Made by a program: the position numbers and the translations under genes. The notes under the pieces were generated by a model. That model ran no database searches and was not told the DNA's origin. It saw only the letters and a list, made by a program, of their open reading frames with translations. Below are positions 15,787 through 23,039 of a DNA stretch of 64,000 nucleotides, piece after piece (the first letter of the stretch is position 1; every line of letters starts with the position of its first letter). Source of the stretch: Drouetiella hepatica Uher 2000/2452 (GTDB lineage Bacteria; Cyanobacteriota; Cyanobacteriia; Elainellales; Elainellaceae); NCBI GenBank assembly GCA_019359505.1, contig JAHHHD010000015.1:62001-126000 (forward strand). Direction: 5' to 3'.

Positions 15787-16278
15787 CTAGTGGTCTGAGT
15801 ATTGGCTGGAGCGTGCCTGTCGTTGATTCCCTTGATGCTGGCTCTGGCGATCGCCCCAATAGCCTGGGTCTGCCTGCAAGCTACTGCCCTGCCCCCTGCG
15901 CTGATTGCTACTATTCTGAGGCTGGCGAATTTTCTGAGTATCAGAGGTAACAAACTCTTCCCGAATCCATCCCTTTAGCATCGGCGAATCAGAAAACTGC
16001 ACGTAATTCCACAGGTAGCCCTCATTACTCCCCACCTGCTCAAGGACGGTGACGCGATCGCCCCCCAGTCCATACCCAACTCGCTGCCTGTTGGTTCCTG
16101 GCTTGGGATAAACGTTAATCTCAAAATCTGGCTCCGGTGCAACTAGCACACTCGGCTGGTTCAGGCTCTGGTTGCTTTGATTGCTGCTATTATCCGCCCA
16201 TGCAAACGGCACAAGAACAGTTGAGCAAATCACAGCAATTGCCATCAGCACTGAAACAATGAATGGTTTGAAGGTCAT
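15787..16278 (-). CDS. Secreted bacterial SH3 domain protein
   Basis: ATG 16278 (MTFKPFIVSVLMAIAV) gives a 163-residue protein with a signal peptide ending in PFAWA. An extended frame upstream reads through the 15-bp tandem repeats and is not used. Residues about 45-115 make a bacterial SH3-type barrel (INVYPKPGTNRQRVGYGLGG, then LWNYVQFSDSPMLKGWIREE), a fold that binds peptidoglycan or peptides in the envelope. The C-terminal 45 residues are Gln/Asn/Ser/Arg-rich and probably disordered. Its start is 62 bp downstream of the guanine deaminase stop, so read-through transcription is possible. Confidence 0.75.
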   Translation of the reverse strand: MTFKPFIVSVLMAIAVICSTVLVPFAWADNSSNQSNQSLNQPSVLVAPEPDFEINVYPKPGTNRQRVGYGLGGDRVTVLEQVGSNEGYLWNYVQFSDSPMLKGWIREEFVTSDTQKIRQPQNSSNQRRGQGSSLQADPGYWGDRQSQHQGNQRQARSSQYSDH

Positions 16279-16289
16279 GATTTTAAGGG

Positions 16290-16341
16290 CTACTTTAACT
16301 ACTGCTACTTCAACTACTGCTACTTCAACTACTGCTACTTC
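16290..16341. repeat. 15-bp tandem repeat between guaD and SH3 gene
   Basis: Three full copies and one partial copy of CTACTGCTACTTCAA lie directly after the guaD stop codon and directly before the SH3 gene start (on the minus strand). They form the leader of the SH3 gene, and changes in copy number could alter its spacing. Confidence 0.85.
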
Positions 16342-17710
16342 AAGTACTAAGGGATTGAGCTTTAGCCTCCCGTTCGTATGCGGGTTCCCCCATGATGTAA
16401 GTTGCCTCAATGGCGCGATCGTCGCCCAACATCATCAGCGTAAATGTTTGTTCTGCCAGTTCATCTATTGAAGTTGCAATGGTTTCTGGGTTGCGGAACG
16501 CCATTAGCGGCGTGGAGCGCAGATCTAGCACAACAAAGTCAGCTTCCTTTCCCGGATCGAAATTGCCGATCGTATCGCCTAGTGACAGCGCTCTTGCTCC
16601 CCCCAGCGTTGCCAAAAACAGCGCCTGAAAAGGAGAAAGCTTTTGCTGTCGCAGTTGCGCCACTTTATAGGCTTCGCTTGCTGTTTGTAGCAGCGAAAAG
16701 CTGGTACCGCCCCCTACATCAGTTCCCAACCCTACTTTCACTGGGTGTTCTGCCGACTTCGCCTGCTCAATTTTGAATAAGCCGCTGCCGAGAAACAGAT
16801 TGGAGGTTGGGCAAAAGGCGATCGCTGATTCAGCTTCCGACAGCCGCTTAAGTTCTTGATCCGTCAGGTGTATTCCATGGGCAAATACCGAGCGGCTTCG
16901 CACTAGCCCAGCTTGGTCATAGGCATCTAAATAACCACTGCTCTCTGGAAATAGCTCTTTCACCCATGCCACTTCGTTCAGATTCTCAGAAATGTGCGTG
17001 TGCAGATAAACATCTGGAAATTCATCCAGCAGCTTTCCTGCAAGACGCAGCTGCTCATTCGTAGAGGTAATCGCAAACCTGGGCGTAACGGCATACAGTA
17101 GACGCCCGTTTTTGTGCCACTTCTGAATGAGGGCTTTACTATCTTGATACGAGGTTTCTGCGGTATCCACCAAAAAATCTGGAGCATTGCGATCCATCAT
17201 GACTTTGCCTGCAATCATTCTGAGATTGCGACGGCTTGCCTCTTCAAAAAACGCATCAGTTGAGACTGGAAATACCGCAGTAAACACTAGAGCCGTTGTT
17301 GTTCCATTTTTCAGTAGCTCATCTAGAAAAATAGAAGCAACTTTCTGAGCATAAGCCTTATCGCTAAACTTACCTTCAGTCGGGAAAATGTACTGATTCA
17401 GCCATTCCAAAAGCTGCTCACCGTAGGCAGCAATGATTTCAGTTTGAGGAAAATGAATGTGAGTATCGATGAACCCTGGCATGATCAGTCGCCCAACGTA
17501 CGAAGTGATGGGCATCGCCGCATACTTATCCTTCAGAACGTCGTAGGCTCCTAACTCCTTGATCTTACCGTCTTCCAAAATCAGCAATCCATCAGAAATA
17601 TAACGGACACTTTCTGATACAGAGCTATGGAAAGGATCATCAATAAAATCTAGAAAGGAGCCGCGAAACGCCTTAAGAGAATGTTGTGGGGATTGAGCAA
17701 GGCTTGCCAT
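16340..17710 (-). CDS. guaD: Guanine deaminase
   Basis: The 456-residue amidohydrolase matches guanine deaminase over its full length. The Zn-binding motif is GFIDTHIHFPQTE (near residues 80-92), followed by LEWLNQYIFPTE, which is distinctive for guanine deaminases. Later come HTHISE, VFAHGIHL and LGTDVGGGTSFSL, carrying the remaining His ligands and the catalytic Asp. It converts guanine to xanthine and ammonia in the cytoplasm and so supplies nitrogen from purines. An AzgA-type purine permease lies on the same strand 2 kb upstream, suggesting a scavenging role. The promoter side is occupied by repeat elements at 17734-18049. Confidence 0.93.
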   Translation of the reverse strand: MASLAQSPQHSLKAFRGSFLDFIDDPFHSSVSESVRYISDGLLILEDGKIKELGAYDVLKDKYAAMPITSYVGRLIMPGFIDTHIHFPQTEIIAAYGEQLLEWLNQYIFPTEGKFSDKAYAQKVASIFLDELLKNGTTTALVFTAVFPVSTDAFFEEASRRNLRMIAGKVMMDRNAPDFLVDTAETSYQDSKALIQKWHKNGRLLYAVTPRFAITSTNEQLRLAGKLLDEFPDVYLHTHISENLNEVAWVKELFPESSGYLDAYDQAGLVRSRSVFAHGIHLTDQELKRLSEAESAIAFCPTSNLFLGSGLFKIEQAKSAEHPVKVGLGTDVGGGTSFSLLQTASEAYKVAQLRQQKLSPFQALFLATLGGARALSLGDTIGNFDPGKEADFVVLDLRSTPLMAFRNPETIATSIDELAEQTFTLMMLGDDRAIEATYIMGEPAYEREAKAQSLST

Positions 17711-17733
17711 GTCAGTTCAAAGATTCAGATAGA

Positions 17734-17840
17734 GCAACCGCTAAAGCGGTTAGGACGGAGACATTTTTGGTGGGGCGCGAAGCGCCCCACCAAAAATGTC
17801 CTAAACAAACTAGCGACTAAGCAAACTAGCGACAGCGATA
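17734..17840 (+). repeat. Type A palindromic element
   Basis: The left flank GCAACCGCTAAAGCGGTTAG is followed by a perfect hairpin with 19-nt arms (17760-17778 and 17782-17800) and a GAA loop. The right flank AAACTAGCGACTAAGCAAACTAGCGACAG is partly duplicated. It lies in the 408-bp gap 17711-18118. Confidence 0.85.
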
Positions 17841-17895
17841 CGCGCGCAATTTTAATTCTCCAGCAGGTTTGAAAGAAGGATCTAAGAAGATGATT

Positions 17896-17928
17896 GAAAA
17901 GTATCAAAAGTTCTGCATTTGCCCCTCA
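17896..17928 (+). repeat. 33-bp repeat shared with 23040-23072
   Basis: GAAAAGTATCAAAAGTTCTG and the following 13 bases match 23040-23072 with two differences. After it, the sequences diverge and meet again only at a short GGGCGATTT. The second copy overlaps the annotated start of a histidine kinase. Confidence 0.75.
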
Positions 17929-17974
17929 GAATTGGAGGATGTAGAGGGCGATTTAAGTTGCTATCAGGCTTTTC

Positions 17975-18049
17975 AAGTAATTCTTGGGGTAGGGGCTTAG
18001 CATTGCTAAGCCCCTACAGCAGATCGGTTGTACAGGTTATGTAATCCAC
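17975..18049 (+). repeat. Type C dispersed element
   Basis: AAGTAATTCTTGGGGTAGGG, the palindrome GGGCTTAGCATTGCTAAGCCC and ATCGGTTGTACAGGTTATGT match the reverse complement of 6676-6746. Confidence 0.85.
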
Positions 18050-18118
18050 CATCCTAAACAAGGGCTTAAAACCCTTCTAAGTTAAGCGAATGAACTACGC
18101 ATTGAAATAGCACTTAAC

Positions 18119-18457
18119 TTAATCTGGGGTAGCAGCGGATTCTGATTTTACCTGAGCAGACTGTCCAGCATTCTGGGAGTCCGGCTGATTTGCCTGGTTG
18201 TTAGAGTAGCTGTACTGTCCGTCTTTGCCTTGAGCTGCCTGCTGCATTTGATCCGCCTGTTTATCTTGAGCGTACTGACTCTGTTGTAAATATTCCTCTT
18301 GTTTAGAGCTTTGATCTTCTTGAAGTTTTTGATTCGATTGCTGTACTCCTTGGAATCGATCCAAAAATCCTGCTGCATTAACCGATGCAGGACTGGCAAT
18401 TAATGTAGCCATAGCAAAGAAAACACCTATAGCAACCAAAATCAATCGACGAATCAT
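18119..18457 (-). CDS. Small Gln-rich exported protein
   Basis: The protein has 112 residues. Residues 1-29 are a signal peptide (LVAIGVFFAMATLIASPASV, cleavage after VNA). The rest is Gln/Ser/Asp/Lys-rich with a predicted helical, coiled-coil-prone segment (NQKLQEDQSSKQEEYLQQ, then QADQMQQAAQ) and a disordered tail. No domain is recognised. An AGGAGAAC ribosome binding site precedes the ATG. It is probably a small periplasmic protein of unknown role. Confidence 0.7.
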   Translation of the reverse strand: MIRRLILVAIGVFFAMATLIASPASVNAAGFLDRFQGVQQSNQKLQEDQSSKQEEYLQQSQYAQDKQADQMQQAAQGKDGQYSYSNNQANQPDSQNAGQSAQVKSESAATPD

Positions 18458-18528
18458 TATGTTCTCCTTAATGTACCAAACTTGTATACGATACCATCTC
18501 TAGTTCATTAAAAGATCTTGCTATTCAG

Positions 18529-19653
18529 CTATGCATCCTGTTCTAATGCTGTATTTTCAGCAACAAGGGGCGTTGATGTTTCTGAACTAGCAGGGTTTGT
18601 CACTGTAATCGCTGGGGCGATCGCTCCATCCCCTGCAAACTTCTTAGCAATTTCGTCGCGCTGGTTCACCAGATACACGCTGATTAGCGTTAAAGCAACA
18701 CCAATCCATTGCAGTCCAGATAGCGTCTCATCTAGAAGTAAGCTGCTGAACAGTAGGGCAAAAACCGGAGTCAGAAAAATGAGAGCGCTAACGCTGGTCA
18801 TATTGCCCGTTGATGCCAGATAGAAGAATATTCCGTAGGTGATTGCTGTGCCAAATACCGTCGCATAGCCTAATCCAGCCCATTCTCCAGCGTGAAGGTT
18901 TACTATCTGGCTGTCTTCCCAGATAAAGGACAGCACTGCAAGCGGTAGCCCACCCAAGATCATGTGCCAGCCCGTTGCCACAAGCGGATCAGCATGTTGC
19001 TTGACGTAACGAATAATGATGGTGCCAAAGGACATGGCTAGAGCTGCCAACAGCATTAGTAATTCGCCACTGTTTAGCAGATTTTGAATGTTAAATCCAG
19101 AAGCAACAACAGGCTGCGAGTTAACCAAGCTATCACTGCTGCTCAAAACCGCTTGAACAGCATAAGGAACAGAAATTCCCAGATTTTTCAGGAGATTAAA
19201 GAACCAGTAGGCAGGTAAGCCACACAAGCAGATGCCTGCTAGCCCAATGCCCAAACCCAGCCAGCCCCAGAGTCCAATTAACTCGCCAAATAGAAACCTT
19301 GAGAGTAAGGCAACCACCAAGGGCTGGGCATCAATCAAAATAGCGCCTATCCCGGCTCCCGTACGCACCAATCCCTCAGTGAGGAAGCCTTGAAAGATGG
19401 CGCCATCGATAAGGGCAAATAAGCCGATCCATAGCCATGCCTGCCAAGTTGTAGGTTGAGGGCGCTTCATGAGGGCTGCAACACCCAAGATTAAGACACC
19501 TGCTGGCAGAAGGCGAAAGGCGGCAAGGAAGAGCGGTGTTGTGTCGGGAATGATGAACTTCATCACGACCATCGCCGTTCCTAAGAAGAAGAAAGGAGCA
19601 ATGAGAAAGAGCGGCGATCGAGTAAAGTCTGATTGTTTTACTTGTATCTGCAT
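18529..19653 (-). CDS. EamA family (DMT) transporter
   Basis: The protein is 374 residues with about ten hydrophobic helices in two EamA repeats. The first (residues about 13-150) contains FFFLGTAMVVMKFIIPDTTP. The second (about 220-335) contains SFGTIIIRYVKQHADPLVAT and ends in WIGVALTLISVYLVN, the typical last helix. The C-terminal 40 residues are polar. Members export metabolites such as amino acids or nucleobases. It lies between the guanine deaminase and the purine permease on the same strand, which hints at a link with purine or nitrogen compounds, but this is context only. Confidence 0.85.
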   Translation of the reverse strand: MQIQVKQSDFTRSPLFLIAPFFFLGTAMVVMKFIIPDTTPLFLAAFRLLPAGVLILGVAALMKRPQPTTWQAWLWIGLFALIDGAIFQGFLTEGLVRTGAGIGAILIDAQPLVVALLSRFLFGELIGLWGWLGLGIGLAGICLCGLPAYWFFNLLKNLGISVPYAVQAVLSSSDSLVNSQPVVASGFNIQNLLNSGELLMLLAALAMSFGTIIIRYVKQHADPLVATGWHMILGGLPLAVLSFIWEDSQIVNLHAGEWAGLGYATVFGTAITYGIFFYLASTGNMTSVSALIFLTPVFALLFSSLLLDETLSGLQWIGVALTLISVYLVNQRDEIAKKFAGDGAIAPAITVTNPASSETSTPLVAENTALEQDA

Positions 19654-19783
19654 GAGCTTATGTCAACGTTTCTGATAAAGGTTTCGACGAGAAGGAAAAG
19701 ACAGCCAGTGTTGGCTCTAGGAGTAAGGTCTACCTCAAAAAATGTTGAAGGTTATACCATAAAGCCTTACCCTTCTGATACCA

Positions 19784-21217
19784 CTAACTGCGACCGAATC
19801 GTAGCGTCATGAAAATGAACCGAGCGACAAAGATACCCGCAATGATCCAAGTACCCCATGACACTTCACGCGCTTTGCCCTGGAACGTTTTGAGAATTGC
19901 ATAGCTAATAAACCCGATCGACAATCCCTCGGCGATCGAGTAGGTCAGAGGAATCATAAAAACCGTTAGAAAGGCTGGAATCGCCACCGCCATATCGTCC
20001 CAATCAATCTCTCTAATCTCTGACAGCATCATTGCTCCCACAATCACGAGTGTCGGCGTGGTGGCAAAGGCTGGAATACCCGCGAAGAGTGGGATAAAGA
20101 ACAGCGCGACCACAAATAAAGCGCCGATGACGATCGCAGTGAAGCCCGTTCGCCCGCCTTCAACAACACCCGCTACTGACTCTACATATACGGTGACGCT
20201 GGAGGTTCCGAGTAAAGGTGCAACAGTTGTTCCAAAGGCATCTGCCATCAGCGCTTGGTTTGCCCGTGGAAGCTGACCATCACGACCAATATAGCCTGCC
20301 CGCATTCCCACACCCGTCAATGTTCCAATGGTGTCAAAAATATCGACGAACAAGAAGACAAACAGCACGGCCAGCCAGTCGATAAAGTTTTGGCTATTCA
20401 GTTGGGCAAGACCGCCGATCGCCTGTCCCATTAGCGCCTGGGGAAGCTCTGGAAAAGCAAAGATGCCTTTGGGCCAGGGCGCAACTCCTGAGATCCACGC
20501 CAGTAAACCCGTTGCAATAATACCCAGCAAGAGCGCTCCTCTGACTCGCCGCACCACCAGTCCTGCGGTGATCAGCAGCCCAATTGCCGCCATTAGCGTA
20601 TTAGGTTCGGCAAAGCTGCCGAAGGCGGTTTTGGTTGCTTCATTTGCCACAATTAATCCTGCACCCCCCTCGTTCACAGCGCCCGACAGACCAATGTAGG
20701 AAATGAACAGACCAATTCCGCCTGCTGTCGCGTGCTTAATGGAGGAAGGAATTGCCTGAATCAAATGGCGACGAATGTCGGTGAACGTTAAAACAATGAA
20801 GACTAGACCCTGAATAAATACGCAAGATAATGCCAATCGCCAATCGATTTTAAGTCCAATGACGACGGAAAAGGCAAAGAAGGCGTTTGTGCCCATCCCT
20901 GGAGCTAGCCCAAAAGGATAGTTCGCGAAAAACCCCATGCAAAAAGTGCCAATTGCCGATGCAATCGCAGTAGCCACGGCGAGTTGAGAAAATAAATCGC
21001 CAGGTGTTTCCAGAAAAATGGCGTTTGACAAAATGATGGGATTTACCACCAAGATGTATCCCATCGTCATAAAGGTGGTGATGCCCGCCAGAATTTCTGT
21101 TTTGAACCCTGTTTTATAGAAATTAAATTTAAAGTAATTCGCGATCGCAGTTTGCCAACCGTTATAGGGGGGAGGTTGGGGCGGATCTAATCGTTCAATG
21201 TCAATATCTGTCTTCAA
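19784..21217 (-). CDS. NCS2 family purine permease (AzgA-like)
   Basis: The protein is about 477 residues from TTG 21217, which has GGGAG eight bases upstream. An earlier TTG at 21256 is possible but has no properly spaced ribosome binding site. The protein has about 12-14 membrane helices. The AzgA-subfamily pattern is clear: TEILAGITTFMTMGYILVVN at the start, GLAPGMGTNAFFAFSVV in the third helix, LFVDIFDTIGTLTGVGMRAG, and SVAGVVEGGRTGFTAI. This subfamily imports adenine, guanine and hypoxanthine by proton symport. With guanine deaminase nearby it gives a route to use external purines as nitrogen. A candidate NtcA-type promoter is found at 21304-21345. Confidence 0.9.
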   Translation of the reverse strand: MKTDIDIERLDPPQPPPYNGWQTAIANYFKFNFYKTGFKTEILAGITTFMTMGYILVVNPIILSNAIFLETPGDLFSQLAVATAIASAIGTFCMGFFANYPFGLAPGMGTNAFFAFSVVIGLKIDWRLALSCVFIQGLVFIVLTFTDIRRHLIQAIPSSIKHATAGGIGLFISYIGLSGAVNEGGAGLIVANEATKTAFGSFAEPNTLMAAIGLLITAGLVVRRVRGALLLGIIATGLLAWISGVAPWPKGIFAFPELPQALMGQAIGGLAQLNSQNFIDWLAVLFVFLFVDIFDTIGTLTGVGMRAGYIGRDGQLPRANQALMADAFGTTVAPLLGTSSVTVYVESVAGVVEGGRTGFTAIVIGALFVVALFFIPLFAGIPAFATTPTLVIVGAMMLSEIREIDWDDMAVAIPAFLTVFMIPLTYSIAEGLSIGFISYAILKTFQGKAREVSWGTWIIAGIFVARFIFMTLRFGRS

Positions 21218-21303
21218 AGCAGCTTTCTCCCACCAACTTGTGTAACTCCGGTGCAACTCCGGCTTTTACTAACAAAAATTTAGCAAGGCGTTATTTTGCT
21301 CAA

Positions 21304-21345
21304 ATAATAAGAAGATTGTCAGGCTCTAGTTGTCACATTTAATAC
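21304..21345 (-). promoter_or_regulatory. Candidate NtcA-activated promoter of the purine permease
   Basis: On the minus strand GTA-N8-GAC (21345-21332) is followed after exactly 22 bases by TATTAT (21309-21304), which fits TAN3T. NtcA-activated cyanobacterial promoters have GTA-N8-TAC about 22 bases before TAN3T, so there is one mismatch. Regulation of a purine importer by nitrogen status would make sense. Confidence 0.5.
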
Positions 21346-21615
21346 AATATTGCCGCAAACTAACCCTCTGCTCAATCCATTTACTTTAGAGTATTTAACT
21401 ATTTTTCTATGCTCTTGCTCAAACGATTTAGCTTCAATAAAACTATAGCTCTGTATGACTCATCAAACTTGCTAATAATCTACTAACAATTTGCCAACAA
21501 TTTGCTAACAACAAACCATCATTTTGATAGTTTTTCTACTCGCGCCGCAGTCATCTCTGAATTTTGCTCTTCTAAAGTTCTCAACGATACAAAATTACCC
21601 GATAAAATTTGTTAT

Positions 21616-21630
21616 GTATACTGTATACAG
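21616..21630. promoter_or_regulatory. Palindromic operator-like site before Rieske gene
   Basis: GTATACTGTATAC (21616-21628) overlaps the perfect 10-bp palindrome CTGTATACAG (21621-21630). It lies about 100 bp before ATG 21727. It may be a repressor site or part of a promoter (TATACT is a good -10 box). The rest of the gap 21257-21726 is AT-rich and has short direct repeats such as AACAATTTGC near 21485-21510. Confidence 0.35.
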
Positions 21631-21726
21631 TTAAGAAATTGTAAAACTAAACCTCTCTGCTTTTTCGCATCTTGGTACAGTTTAAGTGGATTCATTTTTT
21701 ATGCGGAGGTCTGGAATAGTACTGCA

Positions 21727-22860
21727 ATGTTAGTCACACAACAGTCTGTATTGCGTCGGTTCTGGTATCCAGTTGTTCCTATTGCGGATTTATCAGATGG
21801 GTTGAAGACATTTGAATTACTAGGCGAGAAAATTCTCCTCTGGCTAGACTCAGACGATCGACCGATCGCCGCTCAAGATCGCTGTTGCCATCGATCGGCT
21901 CAACTCTCCTTGGGCACTGTGATTAACGGCAATATTTCATGCCCTTATCATGGGTGGCAATTTGACGGCTGTGGCACTTGCGTTCATGTTCCACAACTGA
22001 AGCCAGATCAGGCAATTCCTGCGAGTTACCAAATACAGGTTTACCCCTGTGTGGAGCGATATGGCTATGTCTGGGTTTGTCTAGGAGAACCCCTGACGGA
22101 CATTCCGACGATCGCTGAAGCAACTGATCCTGCCTTCCGTCTAATTCATGAGTTTTACGAACCGTGGCGATGCGCTGGATTACGCGTGATGGAAAACGAG
22201 TTTGACTTGGCTCATCCAACCTTCGTTCACACCGCAACCTTTGGTAGCGAAAACCATCCTATTCCCGATGTGCTAGAAGTGACTGAAACTGAATGGGGAC
22301 TCCAAGTACGGGGGACTCTAGGCGTTGTCAATCCAGAGTTGCAGCAACAGAATCTAGGCATGAATGAACAACAAACAGTTCGTACTTTAGATATGGTTTG
22401 GTTCATGCCGTTTACGGTTAGGTTGCGGATTAATTATCCTAACGGACTGGCTCATGTCATCGTGAATACCATGACGCCTATTAATGACTCAACTTCTCAG
22501 ATGGTACAGTTTTGCCTCCGCAACGATACGGAGACAGATACACCCAGCCAAGATGTAATTGCCTTCGATCGAGCTGTTACTTTAGAAGACAAGCGGATTC
22601 TAGAATCGACTGATTATGATGTGCCGCTAAGTCTAAACCAGGAACAGCATATGTTCACAGACAAACCTGGAATTATGATGCGGAAAAAGATAGCGGCTCT
22701 CCTAAAAGCGCAGGGTGAGGTGGAATATACCAAAGAGCAGAATCTAGGCAGAGTAACAGAATTCTCTGATCAATCCAATCAGAATAAATCTAATCAGAAT
22801 ACATCTAATCAAGACAAGCCTAATCAAAACCATGTCTCAATCAAAATACTACACTCATAG
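21727..22860 (+). CDS. Rieske [2Fe-2S] aromatic oxygenase, pheophorbide a oxygenase-like
   Basis: ATG 21727 is used; the frame is open upstream but non-homologous. The protein is 377 residues. The Rieske cluster ligands are Cys53/His55 (DRCCHR) and Cys72/His75 (CPYHGW). The mononuclear iron motif D-x2-H-x4-H is present as Asp160, His163 and His168 (FDLAHPTFVH). This places it among Rieske non-heme iron oxygenases of the cyanobacterial/plant group that includes PaO and related enzymes; the substrate is unknown. No separate reductase gene is adjacent. The last 30 residues are a low-complexity Asn/Gln/Ser tail (SNQNKSNQNTSNQD) made by a 12-bp tandem repeat. An upstream GGAGG lies about 19 bases from the ATG, so the exact start is not certain. 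Confidence 0.8.
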   Translation: MLVTQQSVLRRFWYPVVPIADLSDGLKTFELLGEKILLWLDSDDRPIAAQDRCCHRSAQLSLGTVINGNISCPYHGWQFDGCGTCVHVPQLKPDQAIPASYQIQVYPCVERYGYVWVCLGEPLTDIPTIAEATDPAFRLIHEFYEPWRCAGLRVMENEFDLAHPTFVHTATFGSENHPIPDVLEVTETEWGLQVRGTLGVVNPELQQQNLGMNEQQTVRTLDMVWFMPFTVRLRINYPNGLAHVIVNTMTPINDSTSQMVQFCLRNDTETDTPSQDVIAFDRAVTLEDKRILESTDYDVPLSLNQEQHMFTDKPGIMMRKKIAALLKAQGEVEYTKEQNLGRVTEFSDQSNQNKSNQNTSNQDKPNQNHVSIKILHS

Positions 22861-23039
22861 AACAGCTAAAATCGTTTAGGGTTCAACTGGCGGCAAAGGG
22901 CGATCGCCCTAAATAAGAGGGTAGGAATTATTACTTTAGAGCGGTGCAGAGTAGAGGGAAATGGAAAATATTAAGCTTTGAGAGCTAAATCATCAAGTTG
23001 CGATTGTGTTCTTCAAAATCAATGCTTTAGAGATTATCT

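Follow-up and report, generated by a model that had tools for sequence, protein, structure and literature searches.

The purine permease gene in this region is probably transcribed from a promoter that would be activated by the nitrogen regulator NtcA, and we consider the gene a likely new predicted member of the NtcA regulon. That NtcA probably switches on the permease follows from the recurrence of the same control site in front of the gene in many of its relatives. The window analysed is a stretch of 64,000 nt from Drouetiella hepatica Uher 2000/2452 (GCA_019359505.1, contig JAHHHD010000015.1, 62,001-126,000), and its main features are listed in Table 1.

In the literature searched, which excluded the Anabaena ChIP target table and the 2005 regulon prediction, we found no report of NtcA control of a purine permease, and none for a permease of the AzgA/AZG type. 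The text of the Anabaena ChIP study places 25 genes under purines, pyrimidines, nucleosides and nucleotides (PMC3898017), and these 25 may include a permease.

Table 1. Positions within the window of the permease gene, its predicted promoter elements and the neighbouring genes.
Feature	Position	Strand	Basis
Predicted NtcA box TGTATTAAATGTGACA	21331..21346	(-)	GTA-N8-GAC; TGT-N10-ACA; sequence and recurrence upstream of orthologues
Predicted -10 box TATTAT (TAN3T)	21304..21309	(-)	22 nt 3' of the GAC of the box; sequence
AzgA-type (NCS2) purine permease	19784..21256	(-)	Pfam PF00860; AZG1/AZG2 in PDB
EamA-family transporter, lying between the permease and GuaD genes	18529..19653	(-)	PF00892
112-aa ORF; by eye, may carry a secretion signal	18119..18457	(-)	ORF; no NCBIfam/Pfam match at E 0.001
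Guanine deaminase GuaD	16340..17710	(-)	TIGR02967, 590.5 bits (cut-off 375.4)

The predicted NtcA box and -10 box

Read 5' to 3' on the minus strand, the box consists of T (21346), GTA (21345-21343), the eight bases TTAAATGT, GAC (21334-21332) and A (21331), with TGTAT as its left half and TGACA as its right half. Measured against GTA-N8-TAC it has a single mismatch, G for T; the GT-N10-AC core is intact and the TGT-N10-ACA frame is matched exactly. The preliminary description had given GTA-N8-GAC with one mismatch, followed after 22 nt by TATTAT, and its coordinates and spacing are correct on a minus-strand reading. No -35 hexamer was seen by eye: at 16, 17 and 18 nt before TATTAT, only 0, 1 and 2 of the six bases of TTGACA are matched. 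The transcription start would lie near 21297. Riboswitch control was considered and rejected, as no Rfam family reached its gathering score between 15000 and 26000.

In the window we count one TGTA-N9-ACA-N19..22-TAN3T composite where 0.16 would be expected, and the pattern was present in 16 of 100 shuffles. Over the 6.4-Mb genome it has 28 matches, roughly twice the 15 obtained when the pattern is read backwards. Given these figures a lone composite match is weak evidence, and it is the recurrence of the site in relatives, not the single match, that sets it above chance.

The permease gene

The permease ORF encodes 490 aa from a listed start at TTG 21256, which is 47 nt past TATTAT. By eye, TTG 21217 is the likelier start, because GGAG (21230-21227) stands nine bases ahead of it and the N-terminus is then aligned with those of relatives. 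The product scores 140.3 bits against PF00860, and in the PDB it matches at E 0.001 only AZG1 (E 1.1e-72) and AZG2, two adenine/guanine permeases of plants. The likeness to these Arabidopsis proteins spans residues 37-458 of 490; unlike them, the permease described here is bacterial and its substrate is putative. This kinship supports the earlier suggestion that the gene product imports purines.

Two further elements lie on the upstream side of the gene. Between the permease and a Rieske oxygenase gene, positions 21466-21526 hold four in-register copies of a direct repeat (CTAACAATTTG-like) arranged in tandem with a period of 11; arrays of Pho boxes, to which PhoB-type regulators bind, have a similar period. 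The Rieske oxygenase gene is divergent (ATG 21727), and about 100 nt before its start we found a perfect odd-length palindrome, TGTATACTGTATACA (21615-21629); when up to 2 mismatches are allowed, it has this one place in the window where 0.02 would be expected. It looks like an operator, perhaps of the GntR type.

Recurrence of the site upstream of permease orthologues

The family is represented by 36 genomes, and the taxonomic order holds the identical 36, so that an order-level search adds none. A permease orthologue is present in 23 of them (25 were matched at 1e-60, G025 and G028 by a paralogue alone). A strict definition of the site (at least 7 of 8 positions, a spacer of 20-24 nt, TAN3T, all within 400 nt upstream) finds it ahead of 16 of the 23 family orthologues against 0.18 expected from shuffles, and in 0 of 8 members of the paralogue clade; L041 and L030, with only 123 nt and 33 nt of upstream sequence, were left out before counting. 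Dyad scans blind to the motif recovered the same pattern. Within the family, GTA-N9-ACA came top of 71,194 pairs (16 of 23 loci, 1.3 expected). When each genus was represented by a single locus, its best protein match, chosen after the sites were known, the pair was again top, now of 59,611 spaced trinucleotide pairs (9 of 14 genera, 0.9 expected). The family-only and per-genus scans, like the family-only half-site count given below, are reruns, since a 29-locus scan and our table of 22 sites both include six extra-family loci, most of whose sites had been seen beforehand.

When genera are compared, the 22 tabulated sites agree in flanks, N8 and spacer at an identity of 0.27-0.33, which is near random. 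General conservation of the stretch therefore fails to explain the match, and the motif appears to have been retained by selection or regained. Mapped onto the gene tree, the site label takes 7 changes, compared with about 17 when labels are shuffled.

The distribution is uneven. The strict site is missing from seven of the 23 family orthologues, and the nearest relatives are mixed: L003 and L004, both close, and L187 are without it, L002 has a copy at -315, and the site of L031 is degenerate (GGTA-N8-AACA, spacing still 22). Outside the family, 5 of 19 orthologues have the strict site where 0.24 would be expected, and so does 1 of 3 distant permeases (0.07 expected). Orthologues fetched later, to check the idea once it had been formed, gave 0 of 2; of 51 further places, a set of 25 gave 6 (0.43 expected) and a set of 26 gave 1 (0.22 expected). 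The six positives among the 25 duplicate sites known from L034 (five) and L035 (one), and GTA-N9-ACA ranks just 234th and 11088th in these two sets. In genome G029 guaD apparently leads the permease, and the region ahead of guaD yielded no site.

Because the site is sporadic among orthologues outside the family, NtcA-type control would seem to characterise chiefly this family, together with a few scattered lineages. The NtcA-type control proposed in the preliminary description is thus supported across genera of the family, where the site is conserved and has the architecture seen at urtA and glnA; the sporadic occurrence of the site elsewhere counts against it. In another family (f28), the permeases L210, L211, L214, L216, L219 and L221 carry a AGTATGGGG-type box ending in TTGCA, 22 nt from TAN3T; these boxes score 6 of 8 positions and could be a weak or decayed site.

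Comparison with urtA and glnA

The urtA gene is an established NtcA target. Dyad scans of urtA and glnA promoters from the same genomes ranked GTA-N8-TAC first for each. The control composite (7 of 8 positions, spacer 19-25, 500 nt; slightly wider than the permease limits) lies upstream of urtA at 28 of 29 loci and of glnA likewise at 28 of 29, with one locus of each gene omitted from the counts. A spacing of 22 nt is the commonest value for both (24 of 29 each), in agreement with the earlier reading of the 22 nt between the permease box and its TAN3T box as an NtcA-type spacing. According to the text of the Anabaena ChIP study, glnA is an NtcA target, and the canonical NtcA site is centred at -41.5 from the start (PMC3898017). 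The permease promoter resembles these class II promoters in its TGTA-N8-NACA box, its 22 nt to TAN3T, the lack of a -35 element and the predicted nitrogen-acquisition gene downstream. It differs from them in that its right half-site is mostly off consensus and in that its site occurs chiefly within a single taxonomic family.

The difference in the right half is consistent. TAC is present in only 2 of 16 family permease sites, compared with 23 of 28 at urtA and 28 of 28 at glnA (Fisher p 1.4e-5 and 1.0e-9, respectively); the other 14 permease sites depart from it, most commonly to CACA (10 of 16). The GAC mismatch noticed earlier is thus the rule for this gene. For the 508 Anabaena ChIP sites, the study's text describes GTN10AC as highly conserved and A3 and T12 as only somewhat prevalent (PMC3898017). 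The off-consensus right half suggests a weaker and later-responding promoter than those of glnA and urtA, one that may call for more severe starvation.

The ntcA gene, and further composite matches in the genome

The genome, listed as 99.78% complete, encodes NtcA (TIGR03697, 385.3 bits, cut-off 244.95); six further matches to this model all fall below the cut-off. Of the 28 composite matches, 8 fall within an ORF of 120 aa or more; another 11 are outside such ORFs and are followed, within 400 nt downstream, by the start of an ORF of 90 aa or more; neither applies to the remaining 9. Together with the purine permease, the 11 include urtA (597.1 bits, cut-off 492.75), an aliphatic amidase (L060; 711.3 bits, cut-off 427), an MSMEG_0572/Sll0783 nitrogen-starvation response protein (L071; 294.1 bits, cut-off 109.85) and a polyamine-type ABC ATPase that is below its cut-off. 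For the rest, either no role in nitrogen use is evident or no family is matched; examples are a short-chain dehydrogenase, a chloride channel-like protein and a protein with a KaiB-like domain.

Guanine deaminase and the possible purpose of purine import

GuaD is a likely functional partner of the permease. Among the 19 family genomes where both genes were found, 9 have them at most 2.1 kb apart (between match ends), variously on the same strand, divergent or convergent. A general control of guanine deaminase by NtcA was rejected: among 28 guaD promoters scanned (one locus was dropped), GTA-N8-TAC occurs in 2 against 0.8 expected and ranks 8888. TGT-N10-ACA is found in 5 of the 28 (1.1 expected, rank 172) and the 7-of-8 composite in 4, with those of G010, G012 and G023 being the permease's own site seen from the opposite side. 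The guaD of G022 (L086) has an independent composite candidate, TGTAATTTACTATACG, with a spacing of 21 to TACCTT. No NtcA-type composite was found in the 300 nt upstream of guaD in the window (L084).

Two hairpins lie upstream of guaD in the window. A perfect 14-bp-armed hairpin with a 1-nt loop (17989-18017) stands between the 112-aa ORF and the guanine deaminase gene, and a perfect 19-bp hairpin with a 3-nt loop (17760-17800) lies about 50 nt upstream of the latter. The core of the second, GGGGCGCTTCGCGCCCC, also occurs in L071 and L074, other fetched loci of the same genome, and for this reason the hairpin is probably a dispersed repeat.

XdhB (TIGR02965) was not found above cut-off in this genome and exceeds the cut-off in 17 of the 36 family genomes. 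Full purine breakdown here was rejected, with no xanthine dehydrogenase subunit at its family cut-off. The weak relative encoded on contig 19 comes with a small subunit that bears an apparent Tat signal, its neighbours are XdhC- and MobA-like, and by eye it looks like a PaoABC-type enzyme. With no XdhB above cut-off, perhaps only the amino nitrogen of guanine is recovered: each guanine would perhaps give one ammonia and leave xanthine over, unless another route exists. The earlier link to guanine deaminase is supported by the proximity of the genes in 9 of 19 genomes; the guaD promoters, which mostly lack the motif, and the failure to find XdhB above cut-off here speak against the earlier interpretation.

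These results bear on whether the permease is meant for purine nitrogen at all. Its promoter could be NtcA-driven and the protein serve purine salvage or nucleotide balance instead, a reading that concerns purpose, is compatible with an NtcA promoter, and is possible, although we find it the less probable one. It is favoured by the lack of an XdhB above cut-off here, by the guaD promoters mostly free of an NtcA mark, and by the lack of a significant tie between xdhB and the permease (14 of 23 genomes with and 4 of 13 without, Fisher p 0.16; tallied by hand, with the split, below-cut-off gene of G011 scored as positive). The proximity of guanine deaminase to the permease argues for purine nitrogen use, as do the other composite matches in this genome that head nitrogen-scavenging genes.

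Other regulators and chance

The main rival to NtcA itself is another regulator of the CRP family, for example cAMP-CRP of the SyCRP1/AnCrpA type, which we judge improbable. Cyanobacterial CRP sites read TGTGA-N6-TCACA, and CRP-activated promoters have TAN3T about 22 bp downstream (PMC2633013). The permease site thus shares with them the TGT-N10-ACA frame, which this consensus includes, and the distance to TAN3T; the CACA right half of 10 of the 16 family sites is that of half a CRP site, and the genome holds the six additional below-cut-off matches to the NtcA model. CRP, however, requires a G as the fourth base of the left half, where the permease box has A and so does not conform to TGTGA-N6-TCACA; all 22 tabulated sites have A here, although the procedure by which these sites were chosen favours A. 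In addition, urtA and glnA of the same genomes share the left half and the spacing, and CACA also ends 5 of 28 urtA sites.

A chance match ahead of an ordinary sigma-70 or constitutive promoter, to which the only about twofold genome-wide excess, the mixed nearest relatives and an overlapping 9-of-12 sigma-70-like pair (21322-21293) might point, is just as improbable, since the site recurs in the family, its position and orientation suit this gene, and sigma-70-like pairs are at chance level (10 observed, 9.9 expected across 16000-23000).

A proposed model for NtcA-dependent purine uptake

Under NtcA control, a shortage of nitrogen would raise 2-oxoglutarate, and NtcA would then bind TGTATTAAATGTGACA. 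Bound about 41.5 bp before the start, it would take the place of the missing -35 element, as in class II promoters, and recruit RNA polymerase to TATTAT. The AzgA-type permease so produced would import guanine, hypoxanthine or adenine, and guanine deaminase, mostly outside NtcA control, would release one ammonia from each guanine.

A more speculative version, which we regard as rather unlikely, would make purine import a conserved late tier within the NtcA regulon. The off-consensus right half would be kept so that the permease needs high 2-oxoglutarate or PipX, and cells without xanthine dehydrogenase would practise a partial scavenging of the amino nitrogen of guanine, leaving xanthine for their neighbours.

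The consistent difference between the permease boxes and those of glnA and urtA in the same genomes gives a ready-made way to ask if the strength of a half-site sets the order of the nitrogen response. If NtcA does control the permease, nucleobases would join urea, amides and others among the organic nitrogen sources that NtcA opens, and the finding would bear on which organisms consume the purines released by other microbes.
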